This document shows, one piece after another, positions 10,140 to 55,653 of a stretch of 64,000 nucleotides of DNA. This DNA is from a virus. Made by a program: the position numbers and the translations under genes. The notes beneath the pieces were generated by a model. It searched no databases. It was given only the letters and a program-made list of their open reading frames with translations, and was not told the origin of the DNA. The stretch spans positions 22,349-86,348 of the IMG/VR virus record IMGVR_UViG_3300047554_000447. The stretch is one strand, 5' to 3'. Numbering within the stretch: the stretch's first letter is position 1; each line of letters begins with the position of its first letter.

Positions 10140-10664
10140 ATGGCAAAATATCTTTCTACAAAAACATACGGCAATGACCGAGGTCTTAGTTGTTGCTTTA
10201 GACAATGGCGTTCGACACATAGTCATTGCTCATTACTACATGGATACTCAATCGGTATCAAACTAATTTTTGAATCAGAAACACTAGACGACCGTAACTG
10301 GGTCATGGACTTCGGTGGGCTTAAGGCATTCAAAGAGTGGAGCGAGTATATGTTCGATCATACTCTTGTAATCGCAGAAGACGATCCTCATCGAGCTATG
10401 TTCGAAAAAATGGCTGAACTTGGTCTCCAAGATCAAGGAGGTGTCTGTGATATTCGTATCGTTCCTGCTGTGGGCTGTGAGAAGTTTTCCGAACTTGCTT
10501 ATAAAGAAATGGAAACGATCTTACACATTTTCAAAACCGGCAACGACTATTATTGCCCTAATGGACAAATATTCAAAGCAAGATATCCTGTTGGTCAAGG
10601 TGTTAAACTTCGTTCAGTTGAAGTTTTTGAACACGCAGGTAATTCCGCAGTATACGAGATCTAA
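10140..10664 (+). CDS. queD: 6-carboxytetrahydropterin synthase / PTPS family protein (QueD-like)
   Basis: The family converts 7,8-dihydroneopterin triphosphate to 6-carboxytetrahydropterin, the second step to preQ0/queuosine and 7-deazaguanine. Seen: the catalytic-type Cys30 in HSHCSLLHGYS, VMDFGGLK after it, and the Asp73-His74 pair in MFDHT. The usual zinc motif HGH reads HGY, and the first zinc His is not obvious (FRQWRSTHSH in its place), which I believe is typical of a phage/marine-bacterial clade. It could therefore have altered chemistry. A QueC homologue is encoded at 32316-32906; no QueE or FolE is in the window. Confidence 0.82.
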   Translation: MAKYLSTKTYGNDRGLSCCFRQWRSTHSHCSLLHGYSIGIKLIFESETLDDRNWVMDFGGLKAFKEWSEYMFDHTLVIAEDDPHRAMFEKMAELGLQDQGGVCDIRIVPAVGCEKFSELAYKEMETILHIFKTGNDYYCPNGQIFKARYPVGQGVKLRSVEVFEHAGNSAVYEI

Positions 10665-11532: not shown

Positions 11533-12150
11533 ATGAACTACGGTCACTATCCAATTTTCCCAACGCTAGTTAGTTGTTTCGATCTCAGCGATCATCCGGC
11601 GTTGCCTAGCGTAGTGGACATTATCGAAAATGGAGATCACAGTCTTCGACCTCACGGATTACTTAATAATGGTCTCAGCAGTATTGGAAATACCGATTTC
11701 CTTGCATCGGCTGAATTAAAGGATATTAAAAGTGCTATTCAAGACGCTGTTAATATCTATACACAAGAAGCTGGTCTAGAATCCTGCACCGTGGCTCACA
11801 GCTGGTTTAATATTTTACATTCAGGGCATGAGGTAAAGCCCCATCGACACGAAGGTAGCGTAGTCAGCGGAGCATTTTATCCTTTTGTAGAAGAAGGTAG
11901 CGTGGGATTAAATTTTGAAAGTCCGTTGAAACCTGTAAAGATGAATGATATCGCAGAAAAGCAAACACAGTATACGTCTTATACTAGTACTATTCAAGTT
12001 AAGTCGGGTCTGTTGATTATTTTTCCTAGCTGGTTAATCCATTATACAGAACAAAATCAAACTTCAAAAAGATTCACCATTAGCTTTAACACTATTAGAA
12101 ATTCACTAAGAGACAATATCATTAAACTTTCTAAGGAAATCGATGACTAA
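11533..12150 (+). CDS. 2OG-Fe(II) oxygenase superfamily protein (putative)
   Basis: A 205-residue protein with the pattern of the small 2-oxoglutarate/Fe(II) oxygenase family common in marine phages: VKPHRHEGSVVSGAFYPF (metal His candidates 104 and 106), GLLIIFPSWLIHYTEQN with the distal His, and SKRFTISFN with the Arg expected to bind 2-oxoglutarate. It would hydroxylate an unknown protein or small molecule. The gene has no useful Shine-Dalgarno and its promoter -10 box is 5 bases from the ATG. It overlaps uvsE by 8 bases. Confidence 0.8.
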   Translation: MNYGHYPIFPTLVSCFDLSDHPALPSVVDIIENGDHSLRPHGLLNNGLSSIGNTDFLASAELKDIKSAIQDAVNIYTQEAGLESCTVAHSWFNILHSGHEVKPHRHEGSVVSGAFYPFVEEGSVGLNFESPLKPVKMNDIAEKQTQYTSYTSTIQVKSGLLIIFPSWLIHYTEQNQTSKRFTISFNTIRNSLRDNIIKLSKEIDD

Positions 12151-13159
12151 AAAAATTGGCTTTGCCTGCAAGTGGATTGACGAACCGAGACAGGTAGACG
12201 GCATTCGGCCCAAGGATCCTGCTAAGGTTTACAATACGGGTGCTACAACTGTGGCTTGGCTTAATCGTCAGACTCAAGATGTAGCAGAAGATAAACTGTG
12301 GAGCCTAATGGAACAAAACATTGAGGCTACTAGAAAATTAGTTGAAAAGGTAGGGGGATTAAATGAACATCTTAGAATGGTACGTATCAGTTCTGATATC
12401 CTACCAGTTTACACTGAGCCTTCTTGGTGTTATTTTTGGCGTAAGCCTGACGTTAGGAATTATCTCGAAAAACACTTTAGTGAGGTTGGCAGGGTGGCTA
12501 GGAGTAGTGATGTCCGTTTATCTTTTCATCCCGGCCAGTTTACAGTTTTGGCAAGTGATAATGCAGACATTGTTACTCGGAGTATCGACGAATTTGAATA
12601 TCACGTAGATATGGCTCGATGGATGGGCTACGGACAGAAGTTTCAAGATATGAAGATTAATGTTCATATTGCCGGTCGACAAGGTCCAGACGGCATCAGA
12701 CGTGCATATCAACGACTAAGTCCAGAAGCACGTAACACACTAACTATCGAAAATGAAGAAATTACACATAATCTTGACACCTGCTTGGAACTTGCTGATC
12801 TCGTTCCGATTGTACTTGACATACACCATCACTGGATTAATTCCGGAGAGTATATTGATCCCGCTGATAGCCGTGTTAAGAAGGTTATTGATTCTTGGCG
12901 TGGTGTTCGTCCTACTTGCCACTTTAGTGTTTCACGGGAAGAATATTTTGATGGCCATTCCGGACACCAGCGCCCCGATCTTCGGACGCTACTAGAATCA
13001 GGACACAAAAAAGCAAAACTCAGAGCACATTCTGATTTCTACTGGAATACAGCAGTTAACGAATGGGCGCTGAGTTTTTGGGATAACTTTGATATCATGT
13101 GCGAAAGCAAGGCTAAGAATCTAGCCAGCTTCACACTCTTCGAACAATCTAAAAAATAA
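12143..13159 (+). CDS. uvsE: UV-damage endonuclease (UvdE/UvsE family)
   Basis: A TIM-barrel, metal-dependent nuclease that nicks 5' of cyclobutane dimers and 6-4 photoproducts. Family features read in order: MTKKIGFACKWID, HLRMVRISSDILP, VRLSFHPGQFTVLAS, KINVHIAGRQG, LTIENEE, VPIVLDIHHHWIN and KLRAHSDFYW; these carry the His/Glu/Asp metal ligands. At 338 residues it is full length. It is co-transcribed with the oxygenase before it. It would allow light-independent repair of phage DNA and fits a sunlit-water phage. Confidence 0.92.
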   Translation: MTKKIGFACKWIDEPRQVDGIRPKDPAKVYNTGATTVAWLNRQTQDVAEDKLWSLMEQNIEATRKLVEKVGGLNEHLRMVRISSDILPVYTEPSWCYFWRKPDVRNYLEKHFSEVGRVARSSDVRLSFHPGQFTVLASDNADIVTRSIDEFEYHVDMARWMGYGQKFQDMKINVHIAGRQGPDGIRRAYQRLSPEARNTLTIENEEITHNLDTCLELADLVPIVLDIHHHWINSGEYIDPADSRVKKVIDSWRGVRPTCHFSVSREEYFDGHSGHQRPDLRTLLESGHKKAKLRAHSDFYWNTAVNEWALSFWDNFDIMCESKAKNLASFTLFEQSKK

Positions 13160-13163
13160 TAAA

Positions 13164-13421
13164 TTATTCAGCTGTTGAAGTTTTAGCTTTAGGTTTACGA
13201 CCGCCCTTTTTTGCTCCGCCAGCCGCTGGCTTTTTACCTTGTGGCTTTTTTGCAGGCTTAGGTTTTGGTTCTTCGATTGGAAGAGCCACTGCCGGTGCAG
13301 TTTCAACAACGGGTGGTTGTTCTACTTTAGCTTCGGGTGTAGTTTCAACCTTATATGGGCATTCCTCTTTAACAGGTTCTGCTGGTTTGCCCACAAAGAA
13401 TTCTTTAATTGCTTTGAACAT
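13164..13421 (-). CDS. Small Lys/Pro/Ala-rich protein
   Basis: An 85-residue protein on the minus strand: MFKAIKEFFVGKPAEP start, then a low-complexity Pro/Glu stretch and a strongly basic tail (KKGGRKPKAKTSTAE). A strong AAGGAGG precedes the ATG, and TATAAATA lies 21 bases upstream of it, so this is a well-expressed late gene. The tail resembles nucleic-acid-neutralising histone-like tails; a DNA-associated or internal head role is possible but unproven. It converges with uvsE. Confidence 0.75.
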   Translation of the reverse strand: MFKAIKEFFVGKPAEPVKEECPYKVETTPEAKVEQPPVVETAPAVALPIEEPKPKPAKKPQGKKPAAGGAKKGGRKPKAKTSTAE

Positions 13422-13441: not shown

Positions 13442-13457
13442 TATTTATAACTAAATA
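13442..13457. promoter_or_regulatory. Back-to-back divergent late-type promoters
   Basis: On the minus strand, TATAAATA (13449 down to 13442) serves the Lys/Pro-rich gene; directly adjoining it on the plus strand, ACTAAATA (13450-13457) lies 5 bases before the SOD start codon. The two 8-base boxes touch with no gap. The minus box is a perfect T4 late element. Confidence 0.7.
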
Positions 13458-13462
13458 TTACT

Positions 13463-14029
13463 ATGGCTTATAATTTCATCAAAAACGTTATCCTAAACGA
13501 AAATACACCTAGTAAAAAATTAGAATTACTGCCTTTACCTTACAGTAAAGGCGACTTAGAGCCTGCGATTTCTGAAGAAACTATCAATTATCATTATAGC
13601 AAACTAGCCAAAGCATATGTTGATCGTTATAATGATCGAGAAGGCGACCTAGACTTCAATGAAGCGGGTGCGTTTTTACACAATTTGTTGTTCCCTCAAT
13701 ATAAAAAAGCAGAGGGAAAAAACGATCCTGATGGATCTGCCGGGGAATTCATTATCAAGAAATATAAAACTTTTGAAAAATTTAAAGAAGAATTTTCAAA
13801 GGTAGCCATGGGTATACAAGGCAGTGGATGGGTGTACTTGGCTAAGAACGGCGAGATTAAAACCATTAAAAATCACCAGATTAAAAATGATATAATTCTA
13901 CTTATTGATTGGTGGGAACATGCATGGGCCTTAGACTATCAATCAGATAAGAAAAAGTATCTAGAAAATCAGTGGAAGATTATTAACTGGAACGTGATTA
14001 GTTCTAGGGTCGGGCTTACAAGCGACTGA
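13463..14029 (+). CDS. Iron/manganese superoxide dismutase
   Basis: Dismutes superoxide to oxygen and hydrogen peroxide. Domain order is typical of Fe/Mn SOD: LPLPYSKGDLEPAISEET, then the first metal His44 in NYHYSKL, His73 in GAFLHNLLF, GSGWVYLAKNG, and Asp149/His153 in LLIDWWEHAWALDY, with W...NW at the end. All four metal ligands are present with the correct D-x3-H spacing. At 188 residues it is slightly short, with several changed core positions. No Shine-Dalgarno is seen; a late-type box is 5 bases upstream. Cytoplasmic or virion-carried location is unknown. Confidence 0.88.
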   Translation: MAYNFIKNVILNENTPSKKLELLPLPYSKGDLEPAISEETINYHYSKLAKAYVDRYNDREGDLDFNEAGAFLHNLLFPQYKKAEGKNDPDGSAGEFIIKKYKTFEKFKEEFSKVAMGIQGSGWVYLAKNGEIKTIKNHQIKNDIILLIDWWEHAWALDYQSDKKKYLENQWKIINWNVISSRVGLTSD

Positions 14030-14303
14030 TATCCGCAGTACTAGATACTGGCATATCCCAAATAGTGCGCCGCTCGGCGCCTTTTTTTTGAGCAAATCTT
14101 TTCGCATCACAGTTATCGCAACAGTGAAAATAATTATTACTGAGTCGCTTTGGATCCATAGATCCTTTTAACCTTTTAAAAAATTCCCCGCAGTTGTCGC
14201 AACGAAATATCGCATAAGTGCGATATCTAGAATAAGCATGCTCGTGACCTAGCTTACTTGTTCTAGTGTATTTGTGTAGATCTTGCTCTGTTTTGATGAA
14301 CAT
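14016..14303 (-). CDS. Small zinc-ribbon protein
   Basis: A 95-residue minus-strand protein with two cysteine pairs (FRCDNCGEFF and HCCDNCDAK) separated by about 25 residues, typical of a zinc ribbon that could bind nucleic acid or protein. Its C-terminus overlaps the SOD gene tail-to-tail by 14 bases. There is no Shine-Dalgarno; TGTAAATA lies 4 bases upstream of the ATG. Its coding region carries the SOD terminator on the opposite strand. Confidence 0.78.
   Translation of the reverse strand: MFIKTEQDLHKYTRTSKLGHEHAYSRYRTYAIFRCDNCGEFFKRLKGSMDPKRLSNNYFHCCDNCDAKRFAQKKGAERRTIWDMPVSSTADISRL
14067..14089 (+). terminator. Rho-independent terminator for SOD, inside antisense gene
   Basis: GCGCC (14067-14071), loop GCTC, GGCGC (14076-14080), then C and eight T. 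It lies 38 bases after the SOD stop and within the coding sequence of the minus-strand zinc-ribbon gene. Confidence 0.85.
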
Positions 14304-14307
14304 ATTG

Positions 14308-14315
14308 TATTTACA
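14308..14315 (-). promoter_or_regulatory. Late-type promoter for the zinc-ribbon gene
   Basis: TGTAAATA reading on the minus strand, 4 bases before the ATG at 14303. No ribosome site is present, so the transcript would start at or next to the start codon. Confidence 0.5.
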
Positions 14316-14335
14316 TTAAGGTTATAAAATTAAAA

Positions 14336-21753
<7,418 letters not shown>

Positions 21754-32319: not shown

Positions 32320-32906
32320 CGAATACCCTGTTCTTTGAGTTTACGACAAGTATCGCATCTTCCGCAAGGTGCGATATTTTTTTCTGTGTAGATTGGACGA
32401 CGGCAGGACCAAAACATATTCTTCAATGTGTCTGGTAGGCTGTCATAAATCTCACGCTTGGTCATATCCAGTACAGGATAGATTTTACTTACAGGTGTGA
32501 ACGCGGCCAGTATTTTGTCAGCACGTTTACGGCGTTCTTCAAGTGCGTGATTACCATCGTTGGCCTGCATACCCATGGCAACTTTTACTATGTTAGGATT
32601 TGCTGAACAGATGTAACCAGCAAAGAAGTTCATAGTATCACTGTCGTATAAAAAGTTAAGTCCATAAGGTTGTGTACCTATTTCGCTTTCACTGTAGTCA
32701 AACTTAAACCCTAGGCGTTTAAGTTCTTTTAGAACCATAGGAACTACAATGCCTTCAGCACGATCTCTAAGTTCTATATTCTTGTTATGTACGTGATGTA
32801 TATGGACAGCATAGTCTTTATATTCATCTTCGGTGAGTAACTTGTATATCATACCCAGGCTGTCTAAGCCGCCTGAGTACATGGCTAGGATTGTAGGTTG
32901 TTCCAT
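32316..32906 (-). CDS. queC: 7-cyano-7-deazaguanine synthase-like protein (QueC family)
   Basis: An ATP-pyrophosphatase of the PP-loop class, which converts 7-carboxy-7-deazaguanine to preQ0. The P-loop MYSGGLDSLG (SGGLDS at 11-16) is at the N-terminus, and the C-terminal zinc cysteines are WSCRRP and CGRCDTCRK. At 196 residues it is slightly short. Together with the QueD homologue (10140) it suggests that the phage makes or uses a 7-deazaguanine base in DNA or tRNA; other pathway genes are not in the window. Its start overlaps the preceding gene by 22 bases. Confidence 0.85.
   Translation of the reverse strand: MEQPTILAMYSGGLDSLGMIYKLLTEDEYKDYAVHIHHVHNKNIELRDRAEGIVVPMVLKELKRLGFKFDYSESEIGTQPYGLNFLYDSDTMNFFAGYICSANPNIVKVAMGMQANDGNHALEERRKRADKILAAFTPVSKIYPVLDMTKREIYDSLPDTLKNMFWSCRRPIYTEKNIAPCGRCDTCRKLKEQGIR
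32351..32383 (+). terminator. Terminator of the fibre operon, inside antisense queC
   Basis: TATCGCATC (32351-32359) pairs with GGTGCGATA (32368-32376) with one G-U wobble, loop TTCCGCAA, then seven T. It lies 31 bases after the plus-strand stop and within the zinc-cysteine region of queC. Confidence 0.85.
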
Positions 32907-33340
32907 ATGTAAAATGTGTAAACTTCGTTAATAGGGTGTTCTTTTGGCTCGGGTGTTAGATCATTAGCACGGGGGAAGTAACAGGCATACTTTGTGGGCC
33001 AGTTAGGATTTAAGAACGCACGGGCTACAAACCTATCACAGTTAGGTAGCACAACTTCTAGCAATCTTTTACAGTAATCTTCACCAAATGCTAGAGCACC
33101 ATCTACTATAATTGTGTCCCAGTGTTCATCTAATGTAAACCAATCACGGTTCTTAATTTTGGGATTATTGTACTTGGGTTCTAAATCCCAAGCTTCATCT
33201 GCTAATGGCAGAAGTAACTGTGTGCTACCTAATAGTAGAACACTTCCAGTACAGTAGTGTTCAAATACTGAATAATCGTTGTTATTAGGGGCCGCAGGCC
33301 ACTTTAGTGTGGTCCAATAAGGATCTGTATGCACATTCAT
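32885..33340 (-). CDS. Putative methyltransferase-like Rossmann protein
   Basis: A 151-residue minus-strand protein. GSVLLLGSTQLLLPL followed by an acidic turn (WDLEP) and DTIIVDGALAF resembles motifs I, II and IV of class I SAM-dependent methyltransferases, but the protein is short and lacks a clear substrate domain. The match is weak and other Rossmann folds are possible. It is transcribed from a perfect TATAAATA located 5 bases before its ATG, without a Shine-Dalgarno, and runs directly into queC. Confidence 0.55.
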   Translation of the reverse strand: MNVHTDPYWTTLKWPAAPNNNDYSVFEHYCTGSVLLLGSTQLLLPLADEAWDLEPKYNNPKIKNRDWFTLDEHWDTIIVDGALAFGEDYCKRLLEVVLPNCDRFVARAFLNPNWPTKYACYFPRANDLTPEPKEHPINEVYTFYIWNNLQS

Positions 33341-33367: not shown

Positions 33368-34075
33368 ATGATAATATTTTTAATGACACTAGTGCTCACG
33401 CACATTACCATTGCCTGTGTTACACTTTATCTGCATCGCAGTCAAGCACACAGAGCAGTAGAATTTAATCCAGTAGTTGCACACTTTATGCGTTTTTGGC
33501 TGTGGCTAACTACAGGAATGGTTACAAAACAATGGGTTGCCATACACCGCAAACACCATAGATTTACAGATCAAGAGGGAGATCCGCACAGTCCCTTAGT
33601 CTATGGCATCAAGCGTGTGTTCTTCAAAGGTGCCGGACTTTATCATTCCGCTAGTAAAGATCGCGAAATGGTGGAACAGTACGGTATAGGCACACCTAGT
33701 GACTGGATTGAACGGAATTTGTACAGCTCACATAGCCGCCTCGGTATTCTTCTAATGCTGATCATAGATCTACTGTTCTTTGGACCGTGGGGCTTAATAG
33801 TGTGGGCTGTACAAATGCTATGGATTCCGTTTTGGGCGGCTGGAGTAGTAAACGGTATCGGACATTGGTGGGGATATCGCAACGGTGAAACTAAAGATGC
33901 TAGCCGTAACATCAGTCCTTGGGGCATTATTATTGGTGGTGAAGAATTGCACAACAATCATCATCTTGCACCAGCTAGTGCTAAACTAAGTGCAAAACCC
34001 TGGGAATTTGATCTAGGATGGTTTTATATACGCACTTTAAGCCTGCTAGGTTTAGCAAAAGTGCGAACCAGCTAA
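33368..34075 (+). CDS. Fatty-acid (acyl) desaturase
   Basis: A 235-residue membrane di-iron desaturase. Three histidine boxes are visible: HRSQAH (23-28), HRKHH (60-64) and HNNHH (near 200), in the arrangement of delta-9 acyl-CoA/acyl-lipid desaturases. Hydrophobic segments flank the boxes. It would introduce a double bond into host membrane acyl chains, raising fluidity. There is no Shine-Dalgarno and a late-type box 4 bases upstream suggests leaderless late expression. It is shorter than many bacterial homologues (about 300 residues), but the core is complete. Confidence 0.9.
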   Translation: MIIFLMTLVLTHITIACVTLYLHRSQAHRAVEFNPVVAHFMRFWLWLTTGMVTKQWVAIHRKHHRFTDQEGDPHSPLVYGIKRVFFKGAGLYHSASKDREMVEQYGIGTPSDWIERNLYSSHSRLGILLMLIIDLLFFGPWGLIVWAVQMLWIPFWAAGVVNGIGHWWGYRNGETKDASRNISPWGIIIGGEELHNNHHLAPASAKLSAKPWEFDLGWFYIRTLSLLGLAKVRTS

Positions 34076-52918: not shown

Positions 52919-53423
52919 TATATTAAAAGAAACCTTGCCTGACTTTGATTTTTCAAATCCCGTGATGGACCCTAGAGATTTGGAAGAACAAATGGTACAG
53001 TTAATGATGCTAGAAAATGGACGAGGCTTGGCTGCTAACCAAGTAGACGTTAGAGCTAGAGTATTTGTTATCAAAACAGAAAAGCTAAACGGAGTAACTA
53101 CACCATTTGCGGTTTTTAATCCAAAAATTCTAGCCGAAGACGAAGAACAAGTTTTAGACTACGAAGGATGTCTAAGTTTCCCCAATCTATTCTTACAGGT
53201 AAAACGTCCAAAACATATTGTAGTCGAATTCCTTGACAGAGACGGAAATCAGTGTATAATAAGATTAGACGACATCGATGCCAGGTGCTTCTTACATGAG
53301 TTAGATCATTTGAACGGTGTGTGTTTTACAGATGGTATTAGTAAATTAAAATTAGACCTAGCACTAAAAAGACAAAGGAAATTAAATGGTAGAACCAAGC
53401 AACGAACTTCAGTTGGTATTTGA
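52890..53423 (+). CDS. def: Peptide deformylase
   Basis: Removes the formyl group from nascent proteins. All three motifs are present: GRGLAANQ (44-51), EGCLS (92-96) and HELDH (136-140), giving the Cys and two His metal ligands and the catalytic Glu. 177 residues, with a normal C-terminal helix. Marine phages carry such genes to process phage or host proteins rapidly; leaderless mRNAs especially may depend on formyl-methionine initiation, though this link is only inference. It overlaps clpA by 38 bases. Confidence 0.93.
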
Positions 53424-55653
53424 AAAAGCAATCGACGTAGCTAAAAAATTACGTCACGAATACCTAACATTAGAGCACCTGCTGTTCGCGATGCTCTGCG
53501 AAGAATCATTTCACAAATGTGTAACTGGGTATGGTGCTGATGCAGACTTTGTTAAGAAAAGTCTTGAACATTATCTTAAAACTAAATTACAGGATATTAC
53601 CCTAGAAGTTGAAGGAGCGAAACCTAAAAAAACCCAAGCCGTTGAAAGAGTACTGAACAGAGCGTTTACACAAGTGCTTTTTAATGGTCGTCAAAAGATT
53701 GAACCAACAGATGTATTCTTAGCAATGATGAGCGAAAAACGTTCATATGCTAACTACTACATTCAACAAGCAGAAATCGACAAAGAAAAATTTGCAGACT
53801 ATCTCAATTCAGAAATGGAAGAAGTTACTGAAGAAGAGCAACAACCGAGAGATAGCCAAGCTGAGAGAGCCCTGAGGTCCTTTAGCACTAACCTTAATGA
53901 ATCAGTTAAGAAGAACAAAGTTGATCCGGTCATTGGCCGCGTTGACGAGCTTGAAAATATTGCTCTAGCATTAGGTCGCAGAAGCAAGTCGAACGTTATC
54001 CTTGTGGGGGATCCAGGCGTAGGCAAGACTGCTATCGCGGAAGGACTTGCTTACAATATCGTTAAAGGTGCTGTTCCAGACTTCCTTAAAGACTATACTG
54101 TCTATAATCTAGATGTAAGTGCTATGTTGGCAGGTAGTAAATACCGCGGAGACTTTGAAGAAAGATTTAAACTGGTTCTCAAAGCCTTAGATAAAAAAGG
54201 TAAAACTGTCTTGTTCATTGACGAAGCACATATGATCAGCGGTGCTGGCGCGGCAGGCGGAAATAGTGCTAACGATCTAAGCAATATGATGAAGCCTGCT
54301 CTTAGCAAGGGTAATATCAAGGTCATTGCTTCAACTACCTGGGAAGAGTATCGCAAGTACTTCGAAAAGGATCGTGCTCTAATGCGCCGCTTCCAGCGCA
54401 TCACGGTTGATGAGCCTAGTAAAGAAATGGCTACGCAGATCCTCAAAGGAATTCGAAAGTACTATGAGCAACATCATAATGTAAAAATTAAAGATGATGC
54501 GATTAATGCGGCTATCAAACTCAGTGTCAAATATCAAACAGATAAGAAATTGCCAGATAAGGCCATTGACTTAATTGACTGCGCATGTTCTAGATTTAAT
54601 TTAAAATCATCTGAAGATCGTGTTGTCGACGAAGCATCAATTCAGTTTGAGTTAAGCAAGATGGTGAACATTCCAGCTGAAACCATTGCCGAACAAGAAT
54701 CGAGCAATCTTGCTAATTTAGAATCTCATCTACAAGAAGAAATCTACGGGCAGGACTCTGCTATCACTGAAATCGTAGATAAAATTCTTGTTAGCCGTGC
54801 AGGACTTAAACCTGAGAATCGACCAGTGGGGGCATTTGTGTTTATGGGCCCAACTGGTACAGGTAAGACTGAAACTGCAAAGTCTCTGGCTAAGAATTTA
54901 GGCGTCAAACTTGTGCGATTTGATATGAGTGAATATCAGGAAAAACACTCAGTATCTAAGCTAATTGGTTCGCCTCCAGGTTATGTTGGCTTTGAAGAAA
55001 ATGCTGGTTTGTTGATCACTAAGATCCAAGAGAATCCTAACTGTGTTCTATTGCTAGACGAAATCGAAAAGTCACATCCTGATGTTTCAACTATCCTATT
55101 ACAGATGATGGATAACGGATTCATTACAGGATCAAATGGAAAACAAGCCGATTGCCGTAATTTAATTCTTATTATCACAACTAATGCTGGCGCACAAGAT
55201 GCTGAAAAACTTAAGATTGGTTTTGGTGAGCAAGAGAAGCAATACAGCGATGATGCTTTGAAGAAATTCTTTGCTCCAGAATTCCGCAATCGTTTAGATG
55301 CAGTTGTAACCTTTGGTAAGCTCACTAAGGAAACAATGATTAAAATCGTTGGCAAGTTTATGCTTGAAGTCCGTGAGCAGGTTAAAGAAAAAGGAATTAA
55401 AGTTAAAATCTCCGATGAAGCAATTGACTGGCTGATTGAAAAGGGCTTTGATTCTAAGATGGGTGCAAGACCGTTACAACGAGTTATTGATAAAGAAATC
55501 AAGCGTCCTCTAGCAAGAATGATGCTGTTTGGAGATCTCAAGAACGGTGGTAATTTAAATATTACTGCCAACGAAACTGGTTTGGCCCTGGCTGTTAAAG
55601 TAAAGACACCTAAGGTTGTAGAAAATGAAGATACCAAAGTCAGTCAAGACTAA
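53386..55653 (+). CDS. clpA: ClpA-type AAA+ unfoldase with ClpP-docking motif
   Basis: Hexameric two-ring unfoldase. An N-domain (LRHEYLTLEHLLFAMLCEES) is followed by D1 (Walker A GDPGVGKT near 208, Walker B VLFIDEAH, arginine RRFQRI) and D2 (Walker A GPTGTGKT near 488, VLLLDEIEK). In D2 the tripeptide IGF (611-613) lies just before FFAPEFRNRLD, where ClpA/ClpX carry the ClpP-docking IGL/IGF loop, so it should feed host ClpP. 755 residues, full length, without the middle domain of ClpB. No phage ClpP is in the window. Confidence 0.93.
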   Translation: MVEPSNELQLVFEKAIDVAKKLRHEYLTLEHLLFAMLCEESFHKCVTGYGADADFVKKSLEHYLKTKLQDITLEVEGAKPKKTQAVERVLNRAFTQVLFNGRQKIEPTDVFLAMMSEKRSYANYYIQQAEIDKEKFADYLNSEMEEVTEEEQQPRDSQAERALRSFSTNLNESVKKNKVDPVIGRVDELENIALALGRRSKSNVILVGDPGVGKTAIAEGLAYNIVKGAVPDFLKDYTVYNLDVSAMLAGSKYRGDFEERFKLVLKALDKKGKTVLFIDEAHMISGAGAAGGNSANDLSNMMKPALSKGNIKVIASTTWEEYRKYFEKDRALMRRFQRITVDEPSKEMATQILKGIRKYYEQHHNVKIKDDAINAAIKLSVKYQTDKKLPDKAIDLIDCACSRFNLKSSEDRVVDEASIQFELSKMVNIPAETIAEQESSNLANLESHLQEEIYGQDSAITEIVDKILVSRAGLKPENRPVGAFVFMGPTGTGKTETAKSLAKNLGVKLVRFDMSEYQEKHSVSKLIGSPPGYVGFEENAGLLITKIQENPNCVLLLDEIEKSHPDVSTILLQMMDNGFITGSNGKQADCRNLILIITTNAGAQDAEKLKIGFGEQEKQYSDDALKKFFAPEFRNRLDAVVTFGKLTKETMIKIVGKFMLEVREQVKEKGIKVKISDEAIDWLIEKGFDSKMGARPLQRVIDKEIKRPLARMMLFGDLKNGGNLNITANETGLALAVKVKTPKVVENEDTKVSQD

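Follow-up and report, generated by a model that had tools for sequence, protein, structure and literature searches.

We analysed a 64,000-nucleotide stretch of DNA (the window) from an IMG/VR virus record of 86,348 bases (G000). The window carries a shortened gene for an Fe/Mn superoxide dismutase (SOD), and we surveyed its neighbourhood in relatives by inspecting 6 kb on either side of 91 distinct SODs. The features of the locus are as follows:

10140–10664, plus strand: QueD-like 6-pyruvoyl-tetrahydropterin synthase; the family lies near the SOD in 52 of 91 relatives
12143–13159, plus strand: UvdE, UV-damage endonuclease; a neighbour of the SOD in 71 of 91 relatives
13164–13421, minus strand: 85-aa Lys/Pro/Ala-rich protein, divergent neighbour, no Pfam match; near the SOD in 57 of 91 relatives
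13442–13449, minus strand: TATAAATA, canonical late promoter pointing away from the SOD, toward the divergent 85-aa gene
13452–13457, plus strand: TAAATA, late-type promoter element five bases ahead of the SOD ATG; the transcript would be nearly or wholly leaderless
13463–13501, plus strand: MAYNFIKNVILNE, N-terminal leader, with a predicted prohead-protease cut after Glu13 (L11-N12-E13 / N14)
13463–14029, plus strand: Fe/Mn SOD gene, shortened form, 188 aa (Pfam, phmmer, invariant ligands, structure model)
14016–14303, minus strand: conserved 95-aa protein carrying CxxC pairs, convergent with the SOD gene, preceded by TAAATA; in 80 of 91 relatives
14067–14088, plus strand: terminator-like hairpin (GCGCC/GGCGC stem at 14067–14080) and T8, prediction only
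14395–21753, plus strand: tail-fibre-like protein, 2452 aa; lies downstream of the SOD, and is near it in 80 of 91 relatives

The initial annotation had proposed an Fe/Mn SOD in a phage, and our analysis agrees. The open reading frame passed the cut-off for both Pfam domains (Sod_Fe_C, E=1.4e-23; Sod_Fe_N, 6.4e-11) and matched 158 solved SOD sequences in phmmer, while a PHROGs search returned no SOD family for it. The metal ligands His44, His73, Asp149, and His153 lie exactly where they had been placed and are invariant across 35 viral homologues. An AlphaFold2 model, built from an alignment of viral homologues alone, reached a pLDDT of 88 and a pTM of 0.84. Compared with solved Fe- and Mn-SODs, which Foldseek also matched, the model gave Z ∼24 and an rmsd of 1.7 over 169 residues. 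The solved SODs align to residues 18/19–188; residues 1–17 fall outside the SOD fold, have a pLDDT <50, and are predicted to be disordered.

Because the ligands are in place, the enzyme had been called probably active, with loss of second-sphere residues named as one observation that would speak against it. The ligands stand but the inference was overstated, since two such residues are lost clade-wide while others are kept. Tyr34 (Y52 in the window SOD), W123, W151, and E152 are invariant in the phage clade. In contrast, the gateway His30 is Leu in 23/23 clade members that have the position, versus His in 27/27 cellular SODs, and its interface partner Tyr174 (human Tyr166) is replaced by A, V, I, S, Q, or M in 24/24 members, versus Tyr in 27/27 cellular SODs. 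In addition, the alpha-hairpin is short by ∼20 residues, ∼10 more are missing before the third strand, and XD-2, the metal-preference position of the SodFM family (PMC10172142), is Leu/Ile. An invariant His138 lies near the usual water-binding Gln/His position, where the loop is shortened and the alignment ambiguous by one column; this residue is a possible substitute for the C-terminal Gln/His. In human MnSOD, His30 and Tyr166 act cooperatively, and k1 is 1.5 nM−1 s−1 for the wild type, ∼0.005 for H30V, 0.21 for H30N, 0.2 for Y166F (PMC9208312, Table 1), and 0.1 for the H30N/Y166F double mutant (PMC9208312). Given the loss of both His30 and Tyr174, full dismutase activity cannot be assumed. 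Among close relatives dN/dS is 0.03–0.06 (pairs with measurable dS), and the protein is therefore under strong purifying selection. We consider the phage SOD likely to be catalytically active, probably at a reduced rate. The clade is a test of how far a SOD can drift, having lost His30 and Tyr174 together under strong selection for all of its ligands.

Phage SODs had been described as rare, a claim that did not hold: we counted at least 593 IMG/VR stretches that code for relatives (a few ∼90% identical among the matches listed), and a 2019 paper had already placed SODs among the ROS-defence genes of freshwater phages (Kavagutti et al. 2019, PMC6802176). The BFVD library holds two SODs from uncultured Caudovirales phages, the nearer 52% identical. 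Among named phages, the short form occurs in the Pseudomonas jumbo phages PA5oct, MIJ3, Paride, and their kin (41% identity) and in the Vibrio jumbo phage 2.275.O (39%). IMG/VR searches returned a single relative of the MIJ3 SOD (L180) and none of the Vibrio 2.275.O SOD.

We then placed the SOD in a tree of 51 rows: 24 short phage SODs and 27 cellular-type SODs from bacteria and archaea, the latter a small sample for judging membership of the SodFM subfamilies 1–5. All 24 short phage SODs fell on one side of a 100/100 branch, apart from the 27 cellular sequences. The suggested ancient acquisition is supported to the extent that the lineage is old and phage-specific. The MIJ3 and Vibrio 2.275.O SODs sit on very long branches, so their placement inside the clade is tentative. 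A search of 84,980 cellular genomes found close matches on two MAG contigs only: one (L088) with several phage-like genes, the other (L087) with the SOD and a phage-like Fe-S carrier joined to chromosomal-looking genes. The papers on MIJ3, Paride, and Callisto and a jumbo-phage review leave the SOD unmentioned, and the literature searched held no study of the short clade. The window SOD is a real, common, phage-specific SOD variant. Separately, the SODs of four GenBank phage records (OR846937, OR850012, OR844989, and MW462191) lie far from the short clade, that of MW462191 grouping with a Sinorhizobium SOD; host contamination and independent captures are both possible origins for them.

The leaderless late-type promoter of the initial annotation recurs across the family. 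TAAATA stands 4–7 nt ahead of the ATG in 62/68 distinct SOD upstream regions, where 7% would be expected; Shine-Dalgarno-like sites are confined to 3/68. In the whole window the pattern shows no excess (6 matches versus 5.6 expected), with 4/6 located exactly at ORF starts. These motifs are best explained by a late, leaderless transcript. The gene had also been given its own terminator; a terminator-like hairpin and T8 are present, yet folded with its flanks the hairpin is no more stable than shuffled sequences (z −0.32) and it sits within the antisense 95-aa ORF, so the terminator is a prediction only. The divergent 85-aa protein, which has a canonical late promoter to itself, is conserved and basic, with a tail resembling that of histone H1; it is possibly a DNA-binding protein. 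The layout of the SOD locus recurs at a fatty-acid desaturase gene (PF00487, window 33368–34075), where TAAATA immediately precedes the ATG and a gene with a late promoter runs divergently at 32885–33340.

What precedes the SOD fold is conserved as a motif. Main-group SODs carry a stretch of ∼12–21 residues ahead of the fold (a 13-residue leader in the window SOD), and this leader contains [LI]xE in 87/88 distinct homologues. The residue that follows (P1') is G in 60, S in 14, N in 7, E in 3, A in 2, and M in 1 of the 87 distinct leaders; G, S, N, or A thus comes directly after the motif in 83 of 88 homologues. The MIJ3 leader, MNDSIKKYISIAE/A (IAE/A; the slash marks the cut), and the L180 leader, MTDIRQTLDLLE/A (LLE/A), keep the motif in a different surrounding sequence. 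The T4 proteins compared have the same type of ending (ipII and ipIII, MKTYQEFIAE/A; gp24, MAKINELLRE/S). T4 capsid-targeting propeptides are 10–20 residues long and are cut by gp21, and T4 Alt is cut at ITE-6 and LTE-619 (PMC5694885). A DNA pattern scan for the leader on other proteins returned SODs as 76/76 distinct carriers, two of them cut short; therefore, no movement of the leader between cargos was seen. The SOD orthologue of Vibrio phage 2.275.O (L082) is without a leader; it has a C-terminal extension with LDE/S, and T4 Alt is likewise cut near its C-terminus. Eight distinct SODs (L052, L065, L202, L229, L257, and L282 among the carriers) have a C-terminal SGNH/GDSL-hydrolase-like domain, joined by linkers such as VISES and LVSEG that resemble prohead-protease sites.

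We wondered whether phages of this family have the matching head machinery. Neither Pfam Gp23 nor Peptidase_S77 had a match in the window record or in 11 other phage records, all of them fragments. A 356-kb relative (G013) encodes a SOD with the leader, an S77 protease of the gp21 type (E 6.5e-27), and a gp23-type capsid protein (E 3.5e-82). Its head module is colinear with that of PA5oct (portal 48%, protease 54%, scaffold 38%, and capsid 68% identity). Roughly aligned with T4 gp23, the capsid proteins have their presumed cut sites at KYLLE/SPSAG in G013 and RFLVE/NASAG in PA5oct; the PA5oct LVE/N site thus covers Asn at P1', as in the window leader (LNE/N). Relative to the rest of the proteins, [LI]xE[AGS] was enriched at residues 7–18 by 3.5-fold in a second relative, G001 (P=5e-6), and by 3.3-fold in G013 (P=8e-7); the 86-kb window record showed no enrichment (3 matches, P=0.33). 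The [LI]xE motif is short and some of its carriers look non-structural. A search for PA5oct head proteins in G001 found none. As for PA5oct itself, the T4-type protease is gp331; gp212 (NC_071039 180349–181020), annotated as a head maturation protease, looks like ClpP and has homologues at G000:C1:20766–21386 (64%) and in G001 and G013. A ClpA-like gene lies at window 53386–55653.

PA5oct has reportedly been subjected to structural proteomics analysis (PMC6950013), and its RefSeq record annotates the SOD orthologue, the "hypothetical protein" gp223, with "ESI-MS/MS". The same annotation stands on RNR, thymidylate synthase, DNA ligase, and FtsH, and the set may include co-purifying proteins. 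N-terminal leader motifs were not significantly enriched among the flagged PA5oct proteins (6/85 versus 6/145, P=0.25). Given the flagged metabolic enzymes and the lack of enrichment, the gp223 annotation is supportive but not decisive.

Taken together, these results suggest that the window encodes a phage-specific short SOD, expressed late from a leaderless transcript, whose leader would be a T4-type capsid-targeting propeptide that directs the enzyme into the head. Virion carriage, one of two options left open by the initial annotation, gains support from the leader motif, the head genes of the relative, and the PA5oct ESI-MS/MS annotation. Several independent lines point to it, none of them direct proof, and we give packaging a probability of about 50%, favouring it over a late cytosolic SOD. 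The pathway would run as follows. The SOD of these giant T4-related myoviruses would be transcribed late, and residues 1–13 would take the protein into the prohead core, where a gp21-type (S77) prohead protease would cut the leader after Glu13. The mature core, from about residue 14, would stay in the head and could accompany the DNA into the next host. Once inside, it would remove superoxide around the start of infection, when phage DNA and Fe-S enzymes would be exposed, although probably at a lower rate than cellular SODs do. For the phage SOD we infer targeting, cleavage, packaging, catalysis, and benefit; what we observed is the homology, the ligands, the clade, the conserved leader motif, the promoter motif, and, in a relative, the protease and a capsid protein with a matching motif. 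More tentatively, giant phages may load their heads with an antioxidant enzyme through a T4-type targeting propeptide, so that the enzyme reaches the next cell already cut and ready, alongside the genome. If so, the phage head would hold a ready-made redox enzyme able to act before any phage gene expression. Members of the family occur widely in freshwater. The cultured ones, PA5oct, MIJ3, and Paride, which grow on Pseudomonas aeruginosa laboratory strains, make the packaging idea testable.

The gene neighbourhood can also be read as pointing to a SOD that is made late, stays unpackaged in the cytosol of the infected cell, and there protects Fe-S enzymes and DNA together with UvdE, a neighbouring A-type Fe-S carrier and, in certain phages, also IscU or SUF, the leader having another role. 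A Pfam-confirmed carrier (PF01521) lies beside the SOD in 80/91 relatives and is found in 11/12 phage records searched, UvdE is a neighbour in 71/91, IscU (Pfam) lies near the SOD at four loci, and on the L088 contig, from a Methylophilaceae MAG, the SOD is directly followed by sufB, sufC, sufS, and sufE (L088:4001–8351). The late promoter fits this account too, and a role in ROS defence has been proposed for freshwater phages (PMC6802176). However, a cytosolic role leaves the conservation of [LI]xE in a disordered N-terminal tail unexplained. The exception among the 12 records is moreover the window phage itself: the carrier is missing at window 14303–14395 and from the whole 86-kb record, so this partner is not essential. 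We hold the cytosolic account to be a credible second choice with the odds against it. The Fe-S neighbours do link the SOD to Fe-S protection, which is compatible with packaging. The L088 contig also has phage-like QueD, ClpS, and exonuclease genes, and its SUF assembly cluster is possibly phage-borne. Upstream of the window, the record encodes TctA of a tripartite tricarboxylate transporter (G000:C1:5143–7997, L085; PF01970, 1e-93), flanked by tctC- and tctB-like genes without a Pfam match.

Alternatively, the protein might have kept the SOD fold and its metal with little or no dismutase activity, serving instead as an internal structural protein, a metal store, or a catalyst of other redox chemistry. 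The clade-wide replacement of His30 by Leu and of Tyr174 by small or apolar residues speaks for this account, human MnSOD tolerates an aliphatic residue at position 30 very poorly (H30V, PMC9208312), and the hairpin is shortened; yet the ligands, Tyr34, Trp123, Trp151, and Glu152 are all invariant, a new invariant His138 has appeared, and purifying selection is strong. We consider the loss of activity improbable. An origin by recent capture from a host, or from host DNA misjoined to a phage contig, has precedents among phage records such as MW462191, but we rejected it for the window SOD on tree and synteny: the clade is phage-only at 100/100, the same gene order recurs in ∼80 relatives, and of the two MAG contigs with close cellular-genome matches one is rich in phage-like genes. 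Such an origin is very improbable.

We finally compared the packaged SOD proposed here with known systems. It shares with the Fe/Mn SOD family (SodFM1–5, Sendra et al. 2023, PMC10172142) the fold, both Pfam domains, the four ligands, Tyr34, and the second-sphere Trp and Glu, and differs in its phage-only clade, the absence of His30 and Tyr174, the short hairpin, Leu/Ile at XD-2, and the N-terminal leader. Compared with the C-terminal water-coordinating His of SodFM3/4, the invariant phage H138 is one alignment column off, in a shortened loop. The words "virus" and "phage" are absent from the main text of Sendra et al. PA5oct gp223 and MIJ3 SodB (Arenbergviridae), for which the literature searched gives no role, share the clade, the short form, and a leader ending in IAE/A, but are only 41% identical over 82% of the query. 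SOD genes in freshwater phages are likewise the subject of Kavagutti et al. 2019 (PMC6802176), who propose expression in the host; the passages concerned do not include this clade, leader, or neighbourhood. T4 IPII, IPIII, and Alt resemble the window SOD in being late genes and in having a short N-terminal stretch that ends with [LI]xE, and T4-like gp21/gp23-type head genes are present in relatives of the window SOD; the cargo here, in contrast, is a SOD, and its cleavage and packaging are predicted only.
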